Of a stretch of 64,000 nt of DNA, positions 13,545-53,897 are shown piece by piece. The notes under the pieces were generated by a model that worked only from the letters and a program-made list of their open reading frames with translations, was not told where the DNA came from and made no database searches. Positions within the stretch are counted from its first letter, which is position 1, and each line of letters begins with the position of its first letter. Where the stretch lies: the NCBI RefSeq assembly GCF_007830615.1, contig NZ_VLLI01000001.1, positions 124,001 through 188,000 on the forward strand, read 5' to 3'. This DNA is from Mucilaginibacter frigoritolerans. Lineage in GTDB: Bacteria; Bacteroidota; Bacteroidia; Sphingobacteriales; Sphingobacteriaceae. The position numbers and the translations under genes are program-made.

Positions 13545-13604
13545 GGGGGATTGAATGGTTTTGTGGATAGTTACTTCCTATCTAAAAAAAAGCAATAACC
13601 TACC

Positions 13605-13699
13605 CGTCATTGCGAGGTACGAAGCAATCTTTATGCTTTACAAATCATCAAGGGCTTTTATTGTCCTGTGTAGAGATTGCTTCGTACCTCGCAATGACG
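13605..13699. repeat. Palindromic REP/MITE-like element with perfect 26-bp arms
   Basis: Arms at 13605-13630 (begins CGTCATTGCGAGGTACG) and 13674-13699 are exact reverse complements, with a 43-nt centre. It lies just past the pspA-family stop codon. The CGTCATTGCGAGG...GAAGCAATC core is a widely seen bacterial palindrome type. A degenerate relative is at 22967-23033. Confidence 0.85.
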
Positions 13700-13711
13700 C
13701 GTGGTGAAGGG

Positions 13712-30380: not shown

Positions 30381-33300
30381 TTATAATACAATATTTACTA
30401 TCCTGCCTTTTACCACTATTACCTTTTTAGGTGCTTTGCCATCCAGGTATTTTTGTACATCGGCATTGGCTAAAACGCTGGCTTCAATATCTTTTGGCTC
30501 AAGGCTCAGCGATATGCTCAAATTCATTTTTGTTTTACCATTGATAGAGATAGGATAAGCAAACTCATCCTCAATTAAATACGCGGCGTTGAACTTAGGA
30601 TAAGGCGCATACGATAACGTACCGGCTTCATTGCCCAACAATACCCAAAGCTCCTCACAAATGTGTGGTGCATAAGGCGACAGGATGGTTACCATATCCT
30701 GCAAAATACTGCGCTTGTTGCACTTCAAATCGGTTAGCTCGTTTACGGCTATCATAAAGCTGGATACCGAAGTATTGAACGAGAAACGATCAATATCTTC
30801 CTCAACCTTGCGGATAATTTTATGTAATGATTTTAGCTCTGCTTTGGTAGGCTCTTCGTTAAGTACGGTAAACTCCCAGGCATCGTTATGGAATAACCGC
30901 CAGAACTTGCGTAAAAACTTAAACACGCCCTCAATACCATTAGTGTTCCACGGTTTGCTTTGCTCCAGCGGACCTAAAAACATCTCGTACATACGCAAAG
31001 TATCGGCACCGTAACGCTCAATCAAATCATCAGGGTTAACCACGTTGAATTTAGATTTCGACATCTTTTCAACTTCCACACCACAGATGTATTTGCCGCC
31101 TTCTAAAATAAACTCGGCGTTGGCATATTCCTCGCGCCATTTTTTGAATTTATCAATGTTCAGCACATCATTCTCCACAATATTTACATCAACATGCAAA
31201 GGCGATGTTTGGTATTGCTTGCTTAATCCGTATGATACAAAGGTGTTGGTGCCACGGCCCAGCTCATCAATCAGCCTGTAAACAAAGTTACTACGACCCT
31301 GAATCATGCCCTGATTAATAAGCTTTTTAAAAGGCTCTTCTTCAACCACCAGGTTCATGTCTTTCAAAAACTTGTTCCAGAAACGACTGTACAGCAGGTG
31401 CCCGGTAGCATGCTCGCTGCCGCCAATATACAGGTCAACATCTTTCCAGTAGGCTATAGCTTCTTTTGATGCAAATTCATGATCGTTATTAGCATCCATG
31501 TAGCGGTACCAGTACCAACTGCTGCCTGCCCAACCCGGCATGGTGCTGAGTTCGTATTCAAAAGCATCGGCCCCCTCTAAATCTCCCCCGGTAGGGGAGA
31601 CTTTAACTTCGCTATCGGCATCGCCTGATAACAAGGTTTTATCTCTATCTGGTAAGCTATCTAACTTCAGCTTTATTTTTTCAACAATACCAGTAGGATT
31701 TTCTAAAACTTCATCATTTGTAAATTTGATTACTGTAAATCCGAAGTGGTTTAAAACTTCAGTTCTGGCATCATCAGCTTCTTTATTTAATTTATGATGA
31801 TGTCCATCAAGTTCTATAACTAATCCTTTTTGCAGCGAAACAAAATCGGCTATAAATTGACCTATTGAATGTTGTCTTCTGATTTTATGACCAGATTGGT
31901 TGTTTCTTAACAGTTGCCAAAGAATATTTTCGGCTTCAGTAGGCTGATTTCGGTGAGCCTGACTAAATTCCTTCAATTGTTCATAATACACAGGGTCAGC
32001 CGTTTCCCGATAATTGGCAGCCTGCTCAGAAAGCCCTCCCTTCCGGGTAGGGTTTGGGTGGGGCTTGTAATTCCATCCGGTAGCCCTTGCCAATGGTGGT
32101 TCGCCGCTTTCGGTAGGTAAATATTTATCAACCTCTGGCAGTACCAGTGGTAAATGGCTTTCTTCAATTAAATAAGGCAGCTCATCCTTAAAATAAACAG
32201 GAACAGGCTCGCCCCAGTAACGCTGACGGCCAAATATGGCATCCCTCATCCTGAAGTTTACCTTTGCCTTGCCTGCTCCAATGGCCTCTAATTTGGCTAC
32301 TACCGCTGCGGTTGCTTCCTTATAGGTCAAACCGTTAATAAAATCAGAATTAATGTATTTACCTTCCTTGGTTGGGTCGGCCTCGATATCAATTTTTTGT
32401 AGGTCGATGATCGGTACTATCGGCAAATTAAAATACTTGGCAAACAGGTAATCGCGCTGATCGCCTGATGGTACGGCCATTACGGCACCGGTTCCATATC
32501 CGGCCAAAACGTAATCGGCAATCCAGATCTGTACCTTTTCGCCATTAAGCGGATTAAGCACATAACTACCTGTAAAGGCACCCGATACCGTTTTAGCATC
32601 GGCCATACGCTCCAACTCCGATTTCTTTTTTGTTTTGGTGATATACGCCTCAATATCAGCCTTTTGTGCCGGTGTAGTTAATACATCAACCAACTCATGC
32701 TCTGGAGCTATCACCAAAAAGGTAACCCCGAAAATGGTATCTACCCTGGTAGTAAAAACTTCGATGTAGTGATTAGTGGTTAGTGATTTGATATTAGCTG
32801 CATTGTCAATAGGAAATTTAACACTTGCACCCACGCTTTTGCCTATCCAGTTGCGTTGCATTTCTTTTAAAGGCTCGGGCCAGTCAATGGTATCTAAGCC
32901 CTGCAATAACCTGTCGGCATAGGCGGTAATACGCATGCTCCACTGCATCATTTTCTTTTGCTCAACAGGGTAGCCTCCGCGCTCGCTAAAGCCGTCTTTC
33001 ACTTCATCATTAGCCAATACGGTACCCAATGCAGGGCACCAGTTTACGGTGCTTTCGCGTAGGTAGGTAAGGCGGTATTTTAATAGCTCGGCCTGCTGCT
33101 CCTGGTTGCTCATGGCTTTCCATTGCGCAGCGGTAAAGCTTAATATTTCTTCATCGCATACGGCATTGATGCCTGCCGATCCGTTTTGCTCAAAATGGCT
33201 TACCAGTTTGGCAATGCTTTCGGCTTTATCAGCATCTTTATTATACCAGCTGTTAAACAACTGCATAAATATCCACTGTGTCCATTTATAATAGCCAGGC

Positions 33301-33683
33301 GAGCTGGTACGCACCTCACGACTCCAATCAAAAGAGAAACCAATCTGATCCAGCTGACGGCGATAGGTGGCAATATTGGCCTCGGTAGTTATAGCAGGGT
33401 GCTGCCCGGTTTGTATGGCATATTGCTCGGCAGGTAAGCCAAAGCTGTCATATCCCATAGGGTGCAGCACGTTGAAGCCCTTTAAACGCTTGTAACGCGC
33501 AAAAATATCAGAGGCGATATAGCCCAGCGGATGGCCCACATGCAAGCCCGCACCAGAAGGGTAGGGGAACATATCAAGCACATAATACTTGGGTTTGGTA
33601 GTTTTATCTTCGGCTTTAAATGTCTGATGATCAGCCCAAAACTGCTGCCACTTTTTTTCTATATCTTTAAATTGATAGTCCAT
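30381..33683 (-). CDS. leuS: Leucyl-tRNA synthetase with in-frame DUF559 nuclease insertion
   Basis: 1100 residues, about 165 longer than usual for Bacteroidota. Class I motifs are intact: [18 protein letters not shown] near 38-55 (HIGH box as HVGH), the editing domain, [11 protein letters not shown] near 490, [17 protein letters not shown] near 716, and EKMSKSKFN with the KMSKS lysines. Between [10 protein letters not shown] and [12 protein letters not shown] lies an extra segment, residues about 540-705. It contains a complete DUF559 domain bounded at the DNA level by palindromic inverted ends. Removing it gives about 934 residues. The enzyme charges tRNA-Leu and is essential, so the insertion must be tolerated or removed. 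Confidence 0.93.
31569..32068 (-). mobile_element. Palindrome-bounded DUF559 nuclease element inside leuS
   Basis: Left end (coding strand) at 32066-32030 reads AAGCCCCACCCAAACCC and continues into a CCC/GGG hairpin. The right end at 31569-31608 on the plus strand reads GGCCCCCTCTAAATCTCC then CGGTAGGGGAGACTTT, with the perfect stem TCTCCCC/GGGGAGA. The ends are imperfect inverted repeats of about 37 bp. Between them, leuS residues about 566-677 form a DUF559 domain: [70 protein letters not shown]. The acidic residues expected of this Vsr-like nuclease fold (ADF, IELDG) are present. The whole unit is in frame with leuS. Mobility is inferred from the shared ends at 35760, 39893 and 53783. Confidence 0.75.
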
Positions 33684-33766
33684 TGGTTAATTTAACGCGT
33701 AATAGCCCGCGAAATTAATAAAATCCCTATTAGTTTGGTAGCTTTTTGTTTGTTGATTGTGGGAGT

Positions 33767-33856
33767 AGTCCATAGTCGATGGTCCATAGACCATCGACTT
33801 CCCCTGTACTGTCCGTCCGAAACGGAGTATAGGGTATGTGGAATAATTGCGGACAG
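33767..33856. repeat. Composite repeat unit A (CCATAGTCGA block + GTCCG palindrome)
   Basis: 33767-33800 is a CCATAGTCGATGGTCCATAG-type block made of overlapping CCATRG/GTC words. 33804-33856 is a GTCCG palindrome: CTGTACTGTCCGTCCGAAAC at the left, GTATAGGGTA in the middle, GCGGACAG at the right. The two parts abut. Confidence 0.8.
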
Positions 33857-33920
33857 AAGAGAGCTTAGTTTACAGTTCACAGACGATAGTGGATGCACTA
33901 TGACTTCTGCTTTACATATC

Positions 33921-34015
33921 CATCGACTCTATGGTCTATGGACTATCGACTATGGACTTCCCCTGTACTGTCCGTCCGGTTTTGAGTATAGGGTATGCGG
34001 AATAATTGCGGACAG
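33921..34015. repeat. Composite repeat unit B
   Basis: 33921-33960 carries the CATCGACTCTATGGTCTATG block and 33962-34015 the GTCCG palindrome (CCTGTACTGTCCGTCCGG ... ATTGCGGACAG). Its palindrome is nearly identical to that of unit A apart from a few substitutions, and both lie in the same orientation. Confidence 0.8.
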
Positions 34016-34102
34016 GTCTGTGTTCATTAGTTCGTTGGTTCATTGGTAGTATGGTGGCGGGTTCCTGGTAAATTGCTTTGCATATCATCACAATGGACTC
34101 CT

Positions 34103-34154
34103 TCCGTCCGGTTTGTTAATAGGTACCCTATACCTAATTTCGGACGGACAGTAC
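34103..34154. repeat. GTCCG palindrome in inverted orientation
   Basis: CCGTCCGGTTTGTTAATAGG ... CGGACGGACAGTAC. The central TACCCTATAC is the reverse complement of the GTATAGGGTA core of units A and B, so this copy is inverted relative to them. No CCATAG block precedes it. Confidence 0.75.
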
Positions 34155-34194
34155 AACATCAGGGTGACACCCTTTGGTTATCTACCTTTCAAAT

Positions 34195-34276
34195 CTATCG
34201 ACTATCGACCATGGACTATCGACTCCCCGTCCGCTTTGTCAACTACTACCCTATACTCCGTTTCGGACGAACAGTA
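34195..34276. repeat. Composite repeat unit C
   Basis: 34195-34225 is the CCATAGTCGA-type block (ATCGACTATCGACCATGGAC). 34227-34276 is the GTCCG palindrome (CCGTCCGCTTTGTCAAC, core ACCCTATACT, end TTTCGGACGAACAGTAC), in the inverted orientation relative to units A and B. Confidence 0.75.
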
Positions 34277-34671
34277 CAGCGCTAATTCAGCTATCTCAAC
34301 TGATAAAAAAGATGATATTTTATTTGAGAATTTAGCTGCAATTTGGTATATTTGTATGTATACCGACAGGGTAAATCAATCCACCACAATTTCCTGATTT
34401 AGTATCGCAGCCATCCTGAATTATCTATTTTTTAATAGGTAAGTATAGGTAAGGGTATTTTTAATTTTCAAGGTTTAAAATTTATATCAGTATTAATAAT
34501 TGATATACTATTTTTATTATTCAGGTAGATAACTTTTATGGCAGGTTAGCCTTAATCAGGTTAATGATAAATAAATCAATTCAGGTTGATATTAATATCA
34601 AATTATTTAGTTGCGGATTAATCTGATTTTATAATTAATAGGCTGATAGTTTATTGACTAATTAATTGCTA

Positions 34672-34753
34672 TCTATGGACTATCGACCATGGACTTTTCC
34701 CTGTATCGTCCGTCCGAAAATAAGTATAGGGTAGTGATGGACAAAGCGGACAG
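34672..34753. repeat. Composite repeat unit D
   Basis: 34672-34697 is a CTATGGACTATCGACCATGG block and 34701-34753 a GTCCG palindrome (CTGTATCGTCCGTCCG, core GTATAGGGTA, end AAAGCGGACAG). It is separated from unit C by about 400 bp of AT-rich DNA. Confidence 0.75.
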
Positions 34754-34888
34754 TTGCTTATACAAATTATTTCATCGCGGTGGTAAAATAATAAACCAAA
34801 TGTTACAATCTTTCGTACAAATGGCCTAGCAAACCTAAATAAACGCCCCCCTGGTTTAAATAGTATTCACTTTAGTTGTATTAATAAA

Positions 34889-34896
34889 TATCTTTG
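34889..34896 (+). promoter_or_regulatory. Possible -7 element for the lipoprotein gene
   Basis: TATCTTTG matches the Bacteroidota TAnnTTTG element and lies 28 bp before the ATG at 34924. No convincing -33 TTTG is spaced from it, so this is tentative. Confidence 0.35.
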
Positions 34897-34923
34897 TTTC
34901 ATAAACACAACAAAAACCTCATC

Positions 34924-35697
34924 ATGAAAATTAAATTCAGTGTCCTTTTAGTGCTGGCTATAAGTTTAGCCTTTACATCGTGCAAAAAGTCATCAACAGC
35001 TACTACTGATCCTCAGCTTACACCGCAACAGGTTGCAAGCCAGGTAGCGTTAAACTTTAGCTCAACATTATTAGGAGGCTCAGGTGGACTTAATATAGGC
35101 AAAGGTTTAAACGCACCACAATCACTTGCGGTACATACCAAAAGCAAACGGTTAAATGATTTGTCTGACGGGAATCTTTGCGGTTTAACTGTTGATACTA
35201 CATTTAATTCGACCGTTGCATTTGGCGATTCTACCATAACAGTAGCAGGTACCATTAACTTCTCCTTTAATTGCTCTGGAGGTGCGTTAAGCGGTTTCAC
35301 AACAAATGATAATTTTAATTTAGCATATTCAAGTCCTCAACTTGCAATTGCAGAAAAATCAATCTCAAGTTTAACTTTAACAGTAACAAACGTAGCTGAT
35401 TCTACTGCAGATGTAGCATTAAGTGGTTCGTCATCAACATCTGGTAGCTATCAGTATAAAACCGGCACTAAAAGAACCGGTACAGAAGCTTTCAGCTATA
35501 CTTTAACCAATTTATTGATTGATCCAAATTCAAGCTCTATAGTAAGTGGTTCGGCAAAGTTCAGTACATCAGGCAGCGGTCCTCGTGGTGTATGGAACTA
35601 CCAGGGTACCATTACCTTTTTGCCTAACAACCTGGCTACTATAGTAATTAATGGAAAAACTTATAATGTTAACCTGCTTACCGGCATAGTTAGCTAA
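34924..35697 (+). CDS. Hypothetical lipoprotein
   Basis: 257 residues from the ATG at 34924, giving a lipoprotein signal (MKIKFSVLLVLAISLAFTSC, lipobox FTSC, Cys at about 20) followed by a Ser/Thr linker (KKSSTATTDPQ). The mature protein is Ser, Thr and Asn-rich with alternating beta strands (VDTTFNSTVAFGDSTITVAG, TINFSFNCSGG, SGSYQYKTGTKRTGTEAFSY) and ends in a strand pair (ATIVINGKTYNVNLLTGIVS). No family recognised. It is probably a lipid-anchored periplasmic or surface protein, surrounded by repeat DNA on both sides. Confidence 0.7.
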   Translation: MKIKFSVLLVLAISLAFTSCKKSSTATTDPQLTPQQVASQVALNFSSTLLGGSGGLNIGKGLNAPQSLAVHTKSKRLNDLSDGNLCGLTVDTTFNSTVAFGDSTITVAGTINFSFNCSGGALSGFTTNDNFNLAYSSPQLAIAEKSISSLTLTVTNVADSTADVALSGSSSTSGSYQYKTGTKRTGTEAFSYTLTNLLIDPNSSSIVSGSAKFSTSGSGPRGVWNYQGTITFLPNNLATIVINGKTYNVNLLTGIVS

Positions 35698-35759
35698 GCG
35701 ATATTTAAAATAAACAGTAAGGGCCTTTTCCGATAATACGGGGAGGGCTTTTTTGTTTT

Positions 35760-35848
35760 AAGCCCCCTCTAATTCTCCCCCGGTAGGGGAGATTTTAGCT
35801 TCGCCCGCGTTTAATTTTTGAGCCCCTCCCTACCGGGGAGGGGCTCAA
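35760..35848. repeat. GC-rich palindromic element, solo copy (89 bp)
   Basis: Left end AAGCCCCCTCTAATTCTCC with the stem around CGGTAGGGGAGA, then GCTTCGCCCGCGTTTAA, then right end AGCCCCTCCCTACCGGGG. The first 45 bp match the right end of the leuS element, including the inner TTAGCTTCGC. No nuclease sequence is present. It lies between the lipoprotein and symporter genes. Confidence 0.75.
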
Positions 35849-35858
35849 CCATCAACCA

Positions 35859-35909
35859 CTGTCCGCTTTGTCAACAGGTACCCTATACTCCGTTTCGGAC
35901 GGACAGTAC
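35859..35909. repeat. GTCCG palindromic repeat
   Basis: CTGTCCGCTTTGTCAACAGG, core TACCCTATACTCC, end TTTCGGACGGACAGTAC. It lies 11 bp after the solo GC-rich element and about 50 bp before the symporter start. It is the cleanest copy for defining the family ends (CTGTCCG/CGGACAG). Confidence 0.8.
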
Positions 35910-35960
35910 ATAACAGATTGGGTTATCTCACCTTAAAAAAAATAATTTGTATAATTGTTT

Positions 35961-39892: not shown

Positions 39893-39987
39893 AAGCCCCC
39901 TCTAAATCTCCCCCGGTTGGGGAGACTTCAACTGCGCTCGCGTTGACTTTTTAAGTCCTCCCTACTGGGGAGGATTTAGGTGGGGCC
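39893..39987. repeat. GC-rich palindromic element, solo copy (95 bp)
   Basis: Left end AAGCCCCCTCTAAATCTCC with stem TCTCCCC/GGGGAGA, inner TTCAACTGCGCTCGCG, right end AAGTCCTCCCTACTGGGG then AGGATTTAGGTGGGGCC. It matches the right end of the leuS element for about 45 bp and has an inverted partner end. It lies between sucD and msrB. No coding content. Confidence 0.8.
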
Positions 39988-53783: not shown

Positions 53784-53897
53784 GCCCCACCTAAATCCTC
53801 CCCGGTAGGGAGGACTTTTAAAGTTTTCGGGGATAAAAAGACTATTTACAGTAAATTTCCTAAAGTCTCCCCAACTGGGGGAGATTTAGAGGGGGCT
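53783..53897. repeat. GC-rich palindromic element, solo copy (115 bp)
   Basis: Left end GGCCCCACCTAAATCCTCC with the stem around CCGGTAGGGAGGAC; right end AAAGTCTCCCCAACTGGGGG then AGATTTAGAGGGGGC. Reverse-complemented, the right end matches the leuS element's right end almost base for base. It starts on the last base of the fabG stop codon. The 45-bp centre is non-coding. A long hairpin is possible. Confidence 0.8.

Follow-up and report, generated by a model that had tools for sequence, protein, structure and literature searches.

A DUF559 nuclease domain between palindromic ends, resident in frame in the leucyl-tRNA synthetase of Mucilaginibacter frigoritolerans and in other host proteins, mainly of Bacteroidota

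The leuS gene of Mucilaginibacter frigoritolerans raises the question of how a complete nuclease domain came to lie inside an essential aminoacyl-tRNA synthetase, and whether that domain and the palindromes around it form one mobile unit. The gene, leucyl-tRNA synthetase with an in-frame insert, occupies 30381..33683 on the minus strand of the window (the whole 64,000-nucleotide stretch of contig NZ_VLLI01000001.1 that was analysed) and was identified by frame reading and profile matches as one uninterrupted frame of 1100 amino acids, whose product was hit by the NCBIfam model leuS_bact in three stretches (E 4e-276). A sequence-only reading had placed an in-frame insert of about 166 residues at 31569-32068, close to the extent measured here, 31570..32064 on the minus strand (495 bp, 165 codons), with the boundaries set by the GCCCC and GGGGC ends and seen against relatives' empty alleles. 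In leuS sense, the element begins with an imperfect palindrome, AGCCCCACCCAAACCC...GGGAGGGCTT (32031..32065, minus strand), and finishes with a palindrome, AAAGTCTCCCCTACCGGGGGAGATTTAGAGGGGGC (31570..31606, minus strand), which can also be written AAAGTCTCCCC...GGGGGAGATTTAGAGGGGGC; both are translated, and the ends and the gene are stop-free in one frame. The DUF559 (Vsr-like/EDxHD-like) nuclease domain spans 31662..31979 on the minus strand, corresponding to LeuRS residues 569-674 (Pfam match E 9.9e-30). In sum, the leuS insert consists of a DUF559 nuclease domain flanked on either side by a translated palindrome.

Domain searches of the insert detected no splicing (Hint) domain, with only DUF559 and the related MTES_1575 model matching at E up to 0.001, and a search of 31300-32400 at E up to 1 matched no Rfam intron family. 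The structure model of the full LeuRS was moderate (pLDDT 73.7, pTM 0.58), with the linkers 537-562 and 683-708 below pLDDT 50. The ends had been described from the letters alone as hairpin-forming palindromes; their palindromic character was upheld by recurrence and inverted-repeat tests, whereas the folding energy of the leuS copy, on which the claim does not rest, was unremarkable for its composition (z -0.31 for the imperfect 5' end and z -1.73 for the 3' end). In 10 of the 12 leuS genes filled with DUF559, both termini of the element carried the 3'-type end in inverted orientation, the exceptions being M. frigoritolerans itself (L144) and L145.

Profile analysis revealed that the insert matched DUF559 (PF04480) with 103.1 bits against a curated cut-off of 20.6, covering profile positions 2-108 of 109, and the D of ADF and the E and D of IELDG were all present, in line with the complete domain with acidic residues that had been claimed from the sequence. 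The domain showed a PD-(D/E)XK/Vsr-like fold with catalytic acidic residues, matching 3hrl (E 2e-7), a solved DUF559-like protein related to the leuS domain, and 3r3p (E 1.5e-4), while the fold match to E. coli Vsr itself (1vsr) reached merely E 0.17. The homing endonuclease I-Bth0305I matched the leuS DUF559 both by profile (E 2.7e-6) and by fold (E 1.5e-4). Across 117 embedded DUF559 copies, the catalytic Glu/Asp were conserved in 116-117, a biased figure because these loci were found through conserved motifs or top profile score. By these comparisons, the catalytic residues of the nuclease are intact and the domain is kin of a homing endonuclease catalytic domain. The M. frigoritolerans genome contains one intact DUF559 gene only, namely the leuS copy. 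A second DUF559 copy (L002, G000:C9:30135-30451) lies at the start of hisF, where a frameshift and a stop codon interrupt it; open-frame DUF559-HisF fusions were seen in relatives (L041, L052, L053, L055, and L056).

To compare alleles across the genus, we located leuS in 142 of 149 Mucilaginibacter genomes and read 109 loci (30 in a first batch and 79 fetched of 112 further hits), of which the 103 with both insert sites readable were used for counts and for the tree (L146, L148, L198, L225, L250, and L251 were dropped). At site 2, the insert site of the window, 61 of the 103 loci were empty, 30 had a short or other insert, and 12 contained DUF559, each filled gene coming from a different genome. 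The number of filled loci is a lower bound, as coordinates place DUF559 beside leuS in a minimum of six further genomes (G082/L148, G093, G104, G138, G060, and G069). Because filled alleles recur in separate genomes next to many empty ones, the insert can be put down neither to misassembly nor to the ancestral make-up of LeuRS, the two outcomes that would have spoken against the sequence-only reading; the empty alleles that it had proposed to look for in relatives were abundant. L147, L174, and L146 (the last outside the 103) retained the end pair of the window around a spacer without a nuclease, L245 had a single fused palindrome at site 2, and site 2 of L157, whose flank is common to its filled neighbour L159, is a probable scar. 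At site 1, located at the start of the editing domain, a single genome carried DUF559 (G040; L042 and L206), and 18 of the 109 loci had clear short palindromes. Another repeat family (SQESRVKSQE or similar) was observed in frame at sites 1 or 2, for example in L154, L158, L166, L182, and L207, indicating that both loops collect several repeat families.

Filled and empty alleles were found in close relatives, with L151 (G022, filled) and L210 (G126, empty) only 0.024 changes per column apart. Mapping of DUF559 presence on the LeuRS tree required 10 changes, nine of them forced by starred branches; shuffled labels gave a mean of 11.5 changes and values as low as 10 in 41 of 500 shuffles. A single gain would imply 19 losses on this tree, and zero loss would imply 11 gains.

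To estimate the age of the leuS copy, we compared substitutions in 10 of the 12 filled copies (L145 and L232 were left out). The DUF559 part showed a mean pS of 0.77 and pN of 0.139 (n=10), and flanking leuS showed a pS of 0.67-0.73 and pN of 0.083-0.105, with synonymous sites near saturation in this comparison. These values indicate that the nuclease within leuS is under strong purifying selection, and the synonymous divergence of the insert, which resembles that of the host gene, together with its sharing among relatives argues that the leuS copy is old. The closest filled pairs by DUF559 (L151/L152 and L163/L168) were also close by host gene. Comparison of 17 pairs revealed no raised or lowered similarity at the leuS site that would mark a conversion tract, and recent homing into leuS was evident neither as lowered synonymous divergence nor as such a tract near the site. 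In the DUF559 phylogeny, nine Mucilaginibacter site 2 copies formed one clade (support 95, starred), while the Pedobacter site 2 copies (L074 and L075) and the copy from a Flavobacteriales bin (L127) were placed apart from it. Judged from the sequences, the leuS copy has long been resident and has turned over repeatedly, be it through loss, replacement of alleles, or transfers long ago, and within the genus it behaves as an element that is inherited, lost, or shrunk to a short palindromic remnant. The M. frigoritolerans genome gave no sign of recent movement. The proposal that a mobile unit landed in leuS was therefore supported in its core and altered in its timing: the insert is common to relatives, old, and without a conversion tract.

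DUF559 was also found inside many other proteins. Among the named DUF559 loci, which were the best 80 of 552 picked by likeness to the query and thus not a fair sample, 72 sat in frames of at least 300 aa. In-frame DUF559 was seen in 13 host families, mainly in Bacteroidota: LeuRS, IcmF, MetH, ligase-associated DEXH helicase, HisF, MetG, TruB, RecG, DUF5522, adenine deaminase, IleRS, another class I tRNA synthetase (probably ValRS, named by eye), and UDP-GlcNAc 2-epimerase. Hosts were defined by BLAST clustering with domain searches of representatives, the other members being assigned by clustering only; the HisF and TruB fusions are terminal. The records of the named loci were mostly from Bacteroidota, with a few from Ignavibacteriota and one bin titled Limnohabitans. 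In that bin, L107 has DUF559 inside RecG and is nearest to Flavobacterium difficile L139; the contig may be misbinned Bacteroidota DNA. A Bacteroidota sample contained DUF559 in 222 of 395 genomes, and among the 28 measured of its 30 top-scoring loci, 15 were in long frames and 13 were stand-alone.

Phylogenetic analysis of DUF559 (111 rows) showed 26 changes of host site, compared with a minimum of 17 and a shuffled mean of 78. The DUF559 parts of the IcmF inserts of G091 and Mucilaginibacter sp. X4EP1 (L039 and L092) were identical. Copies from MetG, adenine deaminase, MetH, and DUF5522 (L105, L111, L119, L126, L134, L141, L093, L109, and L132) were intermixed under a fork with support 83, a pattern hinting at frequent jumps around Chitinophagales.

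To examine whether ends and nuclease belong together, we compared 260 bp on each side of 160 DUF559 loci for inverted repeats, with 301 displaced pairs as controls (mean score 11, 99th percentile 16). Of the 156 classed loci (L255 and L275, close to the end of a contig, were set aside, as were L109 and L114, in middle-sized frames), 81 of the 117 embedded ones and 30 of the 39 stand-alone ones exceeded the 99th percentile. The search for flanking palindromes at other DUF559 genes, proposed from the sequence alone, thus returned paired inverted repeats in both classes. Paired repeats were frequent at LeuRS site 1 (16/18), LeuRS site 2 (10/11), and the main IcmF site (22/24) and scarce at the main MetH site (2/13), in HisF (1/5), in RecG (0/2), and in IleRS (0/2); in total, 36 of the 117 embedded copies had no detectable paired inverted repeat. 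An end rule of AGCCYC on the left and GRGGCT on the right held on both sides in 45/117 embedded copies vs 0/228 controls, and on one side only in 39/117 vs 22/228.

By its DUF559, the LeuRS site 1 copy L042 grouped with the IcmF lineage (fork support 84, not starred), and its ends, GCCTCACCCCGGCCCTCTCC and GAGAGGATTTAGGTGAGGC, were of the IcmF type, unlike the LeuRS site 2 type. In addition, the stand-alone pair L316/L323 in G226 was 85.5% identical over 490 bp including the ends, with unrelated flanks, and L322/L329 in G350, 9 kb apart, were 76% identical over 534 columns. Copies of a unit at unrelated places in one genome, the mark of a transposon or MITE, are thus provided by L316/L323 and by L322/L329, and not by the leuS copy itself. 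Given L042, which combines the lineage and the ends of IcmF, and the L316/L323 copies, the ends and the nuclease move together, as had been suggested when the two were read as one mobile unit. Among the stand-alone copies of the genus, seven of the eight shown had other palindromes with CTCACC cores, these eight having been chosen for high scores from 20 fetched. An exact pattern written from one of these palindromes occurred in 13 of 20 genomes tried and was absent from M. frigoritolerans, and the stand-alone-type palindrome was found in 3 of 7 DUF559-less genomes tried.

The same repeat family as in leuS also occurs without the nuclease. Within the window, short doublets of this kind lie at 39895..39986 (92 bp) and 53784..53896 (113 bp), both in no long frame, and another short copy, its right half diverged, lies at 35762..35845. 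The exact pattern with both palindrome halves spelled out gave no hits in the M. frigoritolerans genome, and looser patterns were used thereafter; out of 66 pattern hits, 30 loci were read, which yielded 19 distinct nuclease-free doublets. Each consists of one end type facing the other, with lengths of 90-135 bp (15/19 at 91-95 bp) and no open frame longer than 54 aa. Reversed-pattern controls matched often (29 and 32 in the genome search, and likewise in the genus-wide one) and provided no null because the repeat reads nearly identically backwards; displaced windows were used instead. No clear target-site duplication was detected in the 19 short doublets or in the filled/empty leuS pairs. The Y1/RAYT transposase (Y1_Tnp, PF01797) had no match in the M. 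frigoritolerans genome and was found in 5 of 14 control genomes; as a candidate mover of the repeats in this genome, RAYT was rejected.

Across the genus, 124 of the 132 DUF559-containing genomes and 13 of the 17 without a DUF559 match had the repeat pattern (counted by hand from tables), a weak co-occurrence. Of the latter, G047 contained 33 copies and G053 contained 22, which makes both promising places for another mover or a recent loss to come to light. Repeats in DUF559-less genomes imply either that the nuclease was lost there or that something else keeps or moves the repeats. Other repeats were also observed in the window: GTCCG...CGGAC palindromes with TCTATGGACTATCGACTATGGACTT units in several copies and both directions beside leuS (33766-35942), and an inverted pair ACCCGTCATTGCGAGGTACGAAGCAATCTTTA at 13602-13702, with arms 94% complementary and 37 nt apart.

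Comparison with known systems showed partial resemblances. Inteins with homing endonucleases also place a nuclease in frame in essential genes, and relatives have empty alleles; the leuS insert differs in that no splicing domain was matched in it. To our knowledge, in-frame palindromic elements are known as translated peptides, and their means of moving is unclear. In the accessible parts of two papers (PMC10969869, PMC3733652), Rickettsia palindromic elements are small palindromic repeats of about 150 bp that reside in frame in unrelated protein genes, are translated, and encode a conserved peptide, with no nuclease named there. The leuS-type element is likewise palindromic, translated, and in frame in unrelated proteins, and the earlier comparison with these elements holds as a statement on this way of life; the long form here differs in encoding a complete nuclease domain. 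A REPtron, as outlined in the accessible text of one of these papers (PMC3733652), is a RAYT transposase gene with palindromic ends and short dispersed copies; the DUF559 unit also pairs an enzyme gene with palindromic ends and dispersed short copies, but its enzyme is a Vsr-like DUF559 protein rather than an HUH tyrosine transposase (PF01797 had no match in the M. frigoritolerans genome), and DUF559 also resides in frame inside proteins. I-Bth0305I, according to the available portion of its description (PMC3943268), is a homing endonuclease that a phage encodes and whose DNA-binding region is extended. This EDxHD enzyme shares with the leuS insert a catalytic domain related by profile and fold and a patchy presence at a fixed gene site, whereas the insert was without a further matched domain or intron and has palindromic ends. 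VsrA of Caulobacter contains a DUF559 domain and is a proposed PD-(D/E)XK Vsr-like endonuclease with a proposed role in repair (PMC12907096); it is a separate host gene, and the accessible part of that paper describes neither palindromic ends nor in-frame residence.

The leuS insert is a DUF559 member that lacks the RAYT of REPtrons and the splicing domain of inteins. DUF559 or PF04480 is mentioned in 15 of 5.39 million open-access papers, and DUF559 inserts in host proteins or palindromic DUF559 ends were not found in the titles and abstract openings of the open-access literature, a scope that leaves subscription journals mostly outside. The in-frame residence of the unit in leuS, and of its relatives in a dozen other bacterial protein families, points to a mobile element of a little-noticed kind, one that resides within proteins and is not excised.

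We consider it probable, at roughly two chances in three, that the insert is a composite mobile element, a palindrome-bounded DUF559 nuclease gene that resides unspliced in host proteins. The unit would be a small DUF559 gene bounded by inverted palindromes whose family also includes nuclease-free short copies. On landing in frame in a variable loop, it would become a permanent domain with the translated palindromes as linkers; the host enzyme would stay functional without splicing, and LeuRS would be made and used as a full-length fusion. The nuclease, supplied by the host fusion or by stand-alone copies, may cut palindromic ends or empty sites and thereby spread the unit, and may also convert empty alleles. 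The short copies would be non-autonomous products, perhaps spread in trans by the nuclease. A broader proposal is tentative and could well prove wrong: that this is a new, Bacteroidota-centred class of element in which a Vsr/EDxHD nuclease moves both the unit and the short copies, surviving unspliced in essential enzymes.

The repeats in 13 of 17 DUF559-less genomes count against nuclease-driven movement and would fit palindromes of a REP- or MITE-like kind moved by another enzyme, with DUF559 as cargo trapped between two copies. Such a passenger would also account for the absence of DUF559 from all 19 doublets read in M. frigoritolerans, for the embedded copies without paired ends, and for the pairing of different DUF559 genes with different palindrome families. 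Chance capture predicts otherwise than what was seen in stand-alone copies with other palindrome families, which are also bounded (30/39); moreover, the nuclease in leuS appears to be under strong purifying selection, and Y1/RAYT, the only transposase family searched, was not found in this genome, and we regard capture as unlikely. Spread of the leuS copy mainly through cutting of empty leuS alleles, in the manner of an intein without splicing, is doubtful rather than unlikely. It draws on the site-specific Mucilaginibacter clade (9 rows, 95*), the scattered occurrence beside sister species whose alleles are cleanly empty, the kinship to I-Bth0305I, and the 11 gains that suffice without loss where a single gain needs 19 losses; against it stand the lack of a conversion tract in the compared pairs and a synonymous divergence as large as that of the host, although near saturation places old events beyond reach.

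The conserved catalytic residues, the low pN/pS, and a divergence resembling that of the host gene could also be explained by domestication, that is, by fusion of the domain to LeuRS and other enzymes and its retention there because it serves the host, for example in DNA repair or defence. The hosts share no common function, however, and the scatter among close species (a filled G022 at 0.024 from an empty G126) and the short palindromic remnants at the same leuS site make a domesticated domain quite improbable. Still harder to sustain is removal of the insert by an intein, an intron, or ribosome bypass before LeuRS works. An essential host enzyme and hairpins at both ends would suit such removal, but no splicing domain or Rfam intron match was found, the frame is open throughout with ends translated stop-free, and the linker length varies among relatives, so that this explanation is extremely improbable.

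If the composite element does represent a new class moved by its own nuclease, clean loss would be hard for the host, and each translation of the host enzyme would also yield the nuclease. An element with a catalytic domain makes the mover of palindromic repeats directly testable in a 165-codon unit. For annotation, DUF559-bearing enzymes are easily mistaken for odd fusions, and the DUF559 sites are a source of natural insertion points in enzymes. LeuRS, MetH, IcmF, and other enzymes can house a whole foreign nuclease domain, which bears on how proteins gain domains.
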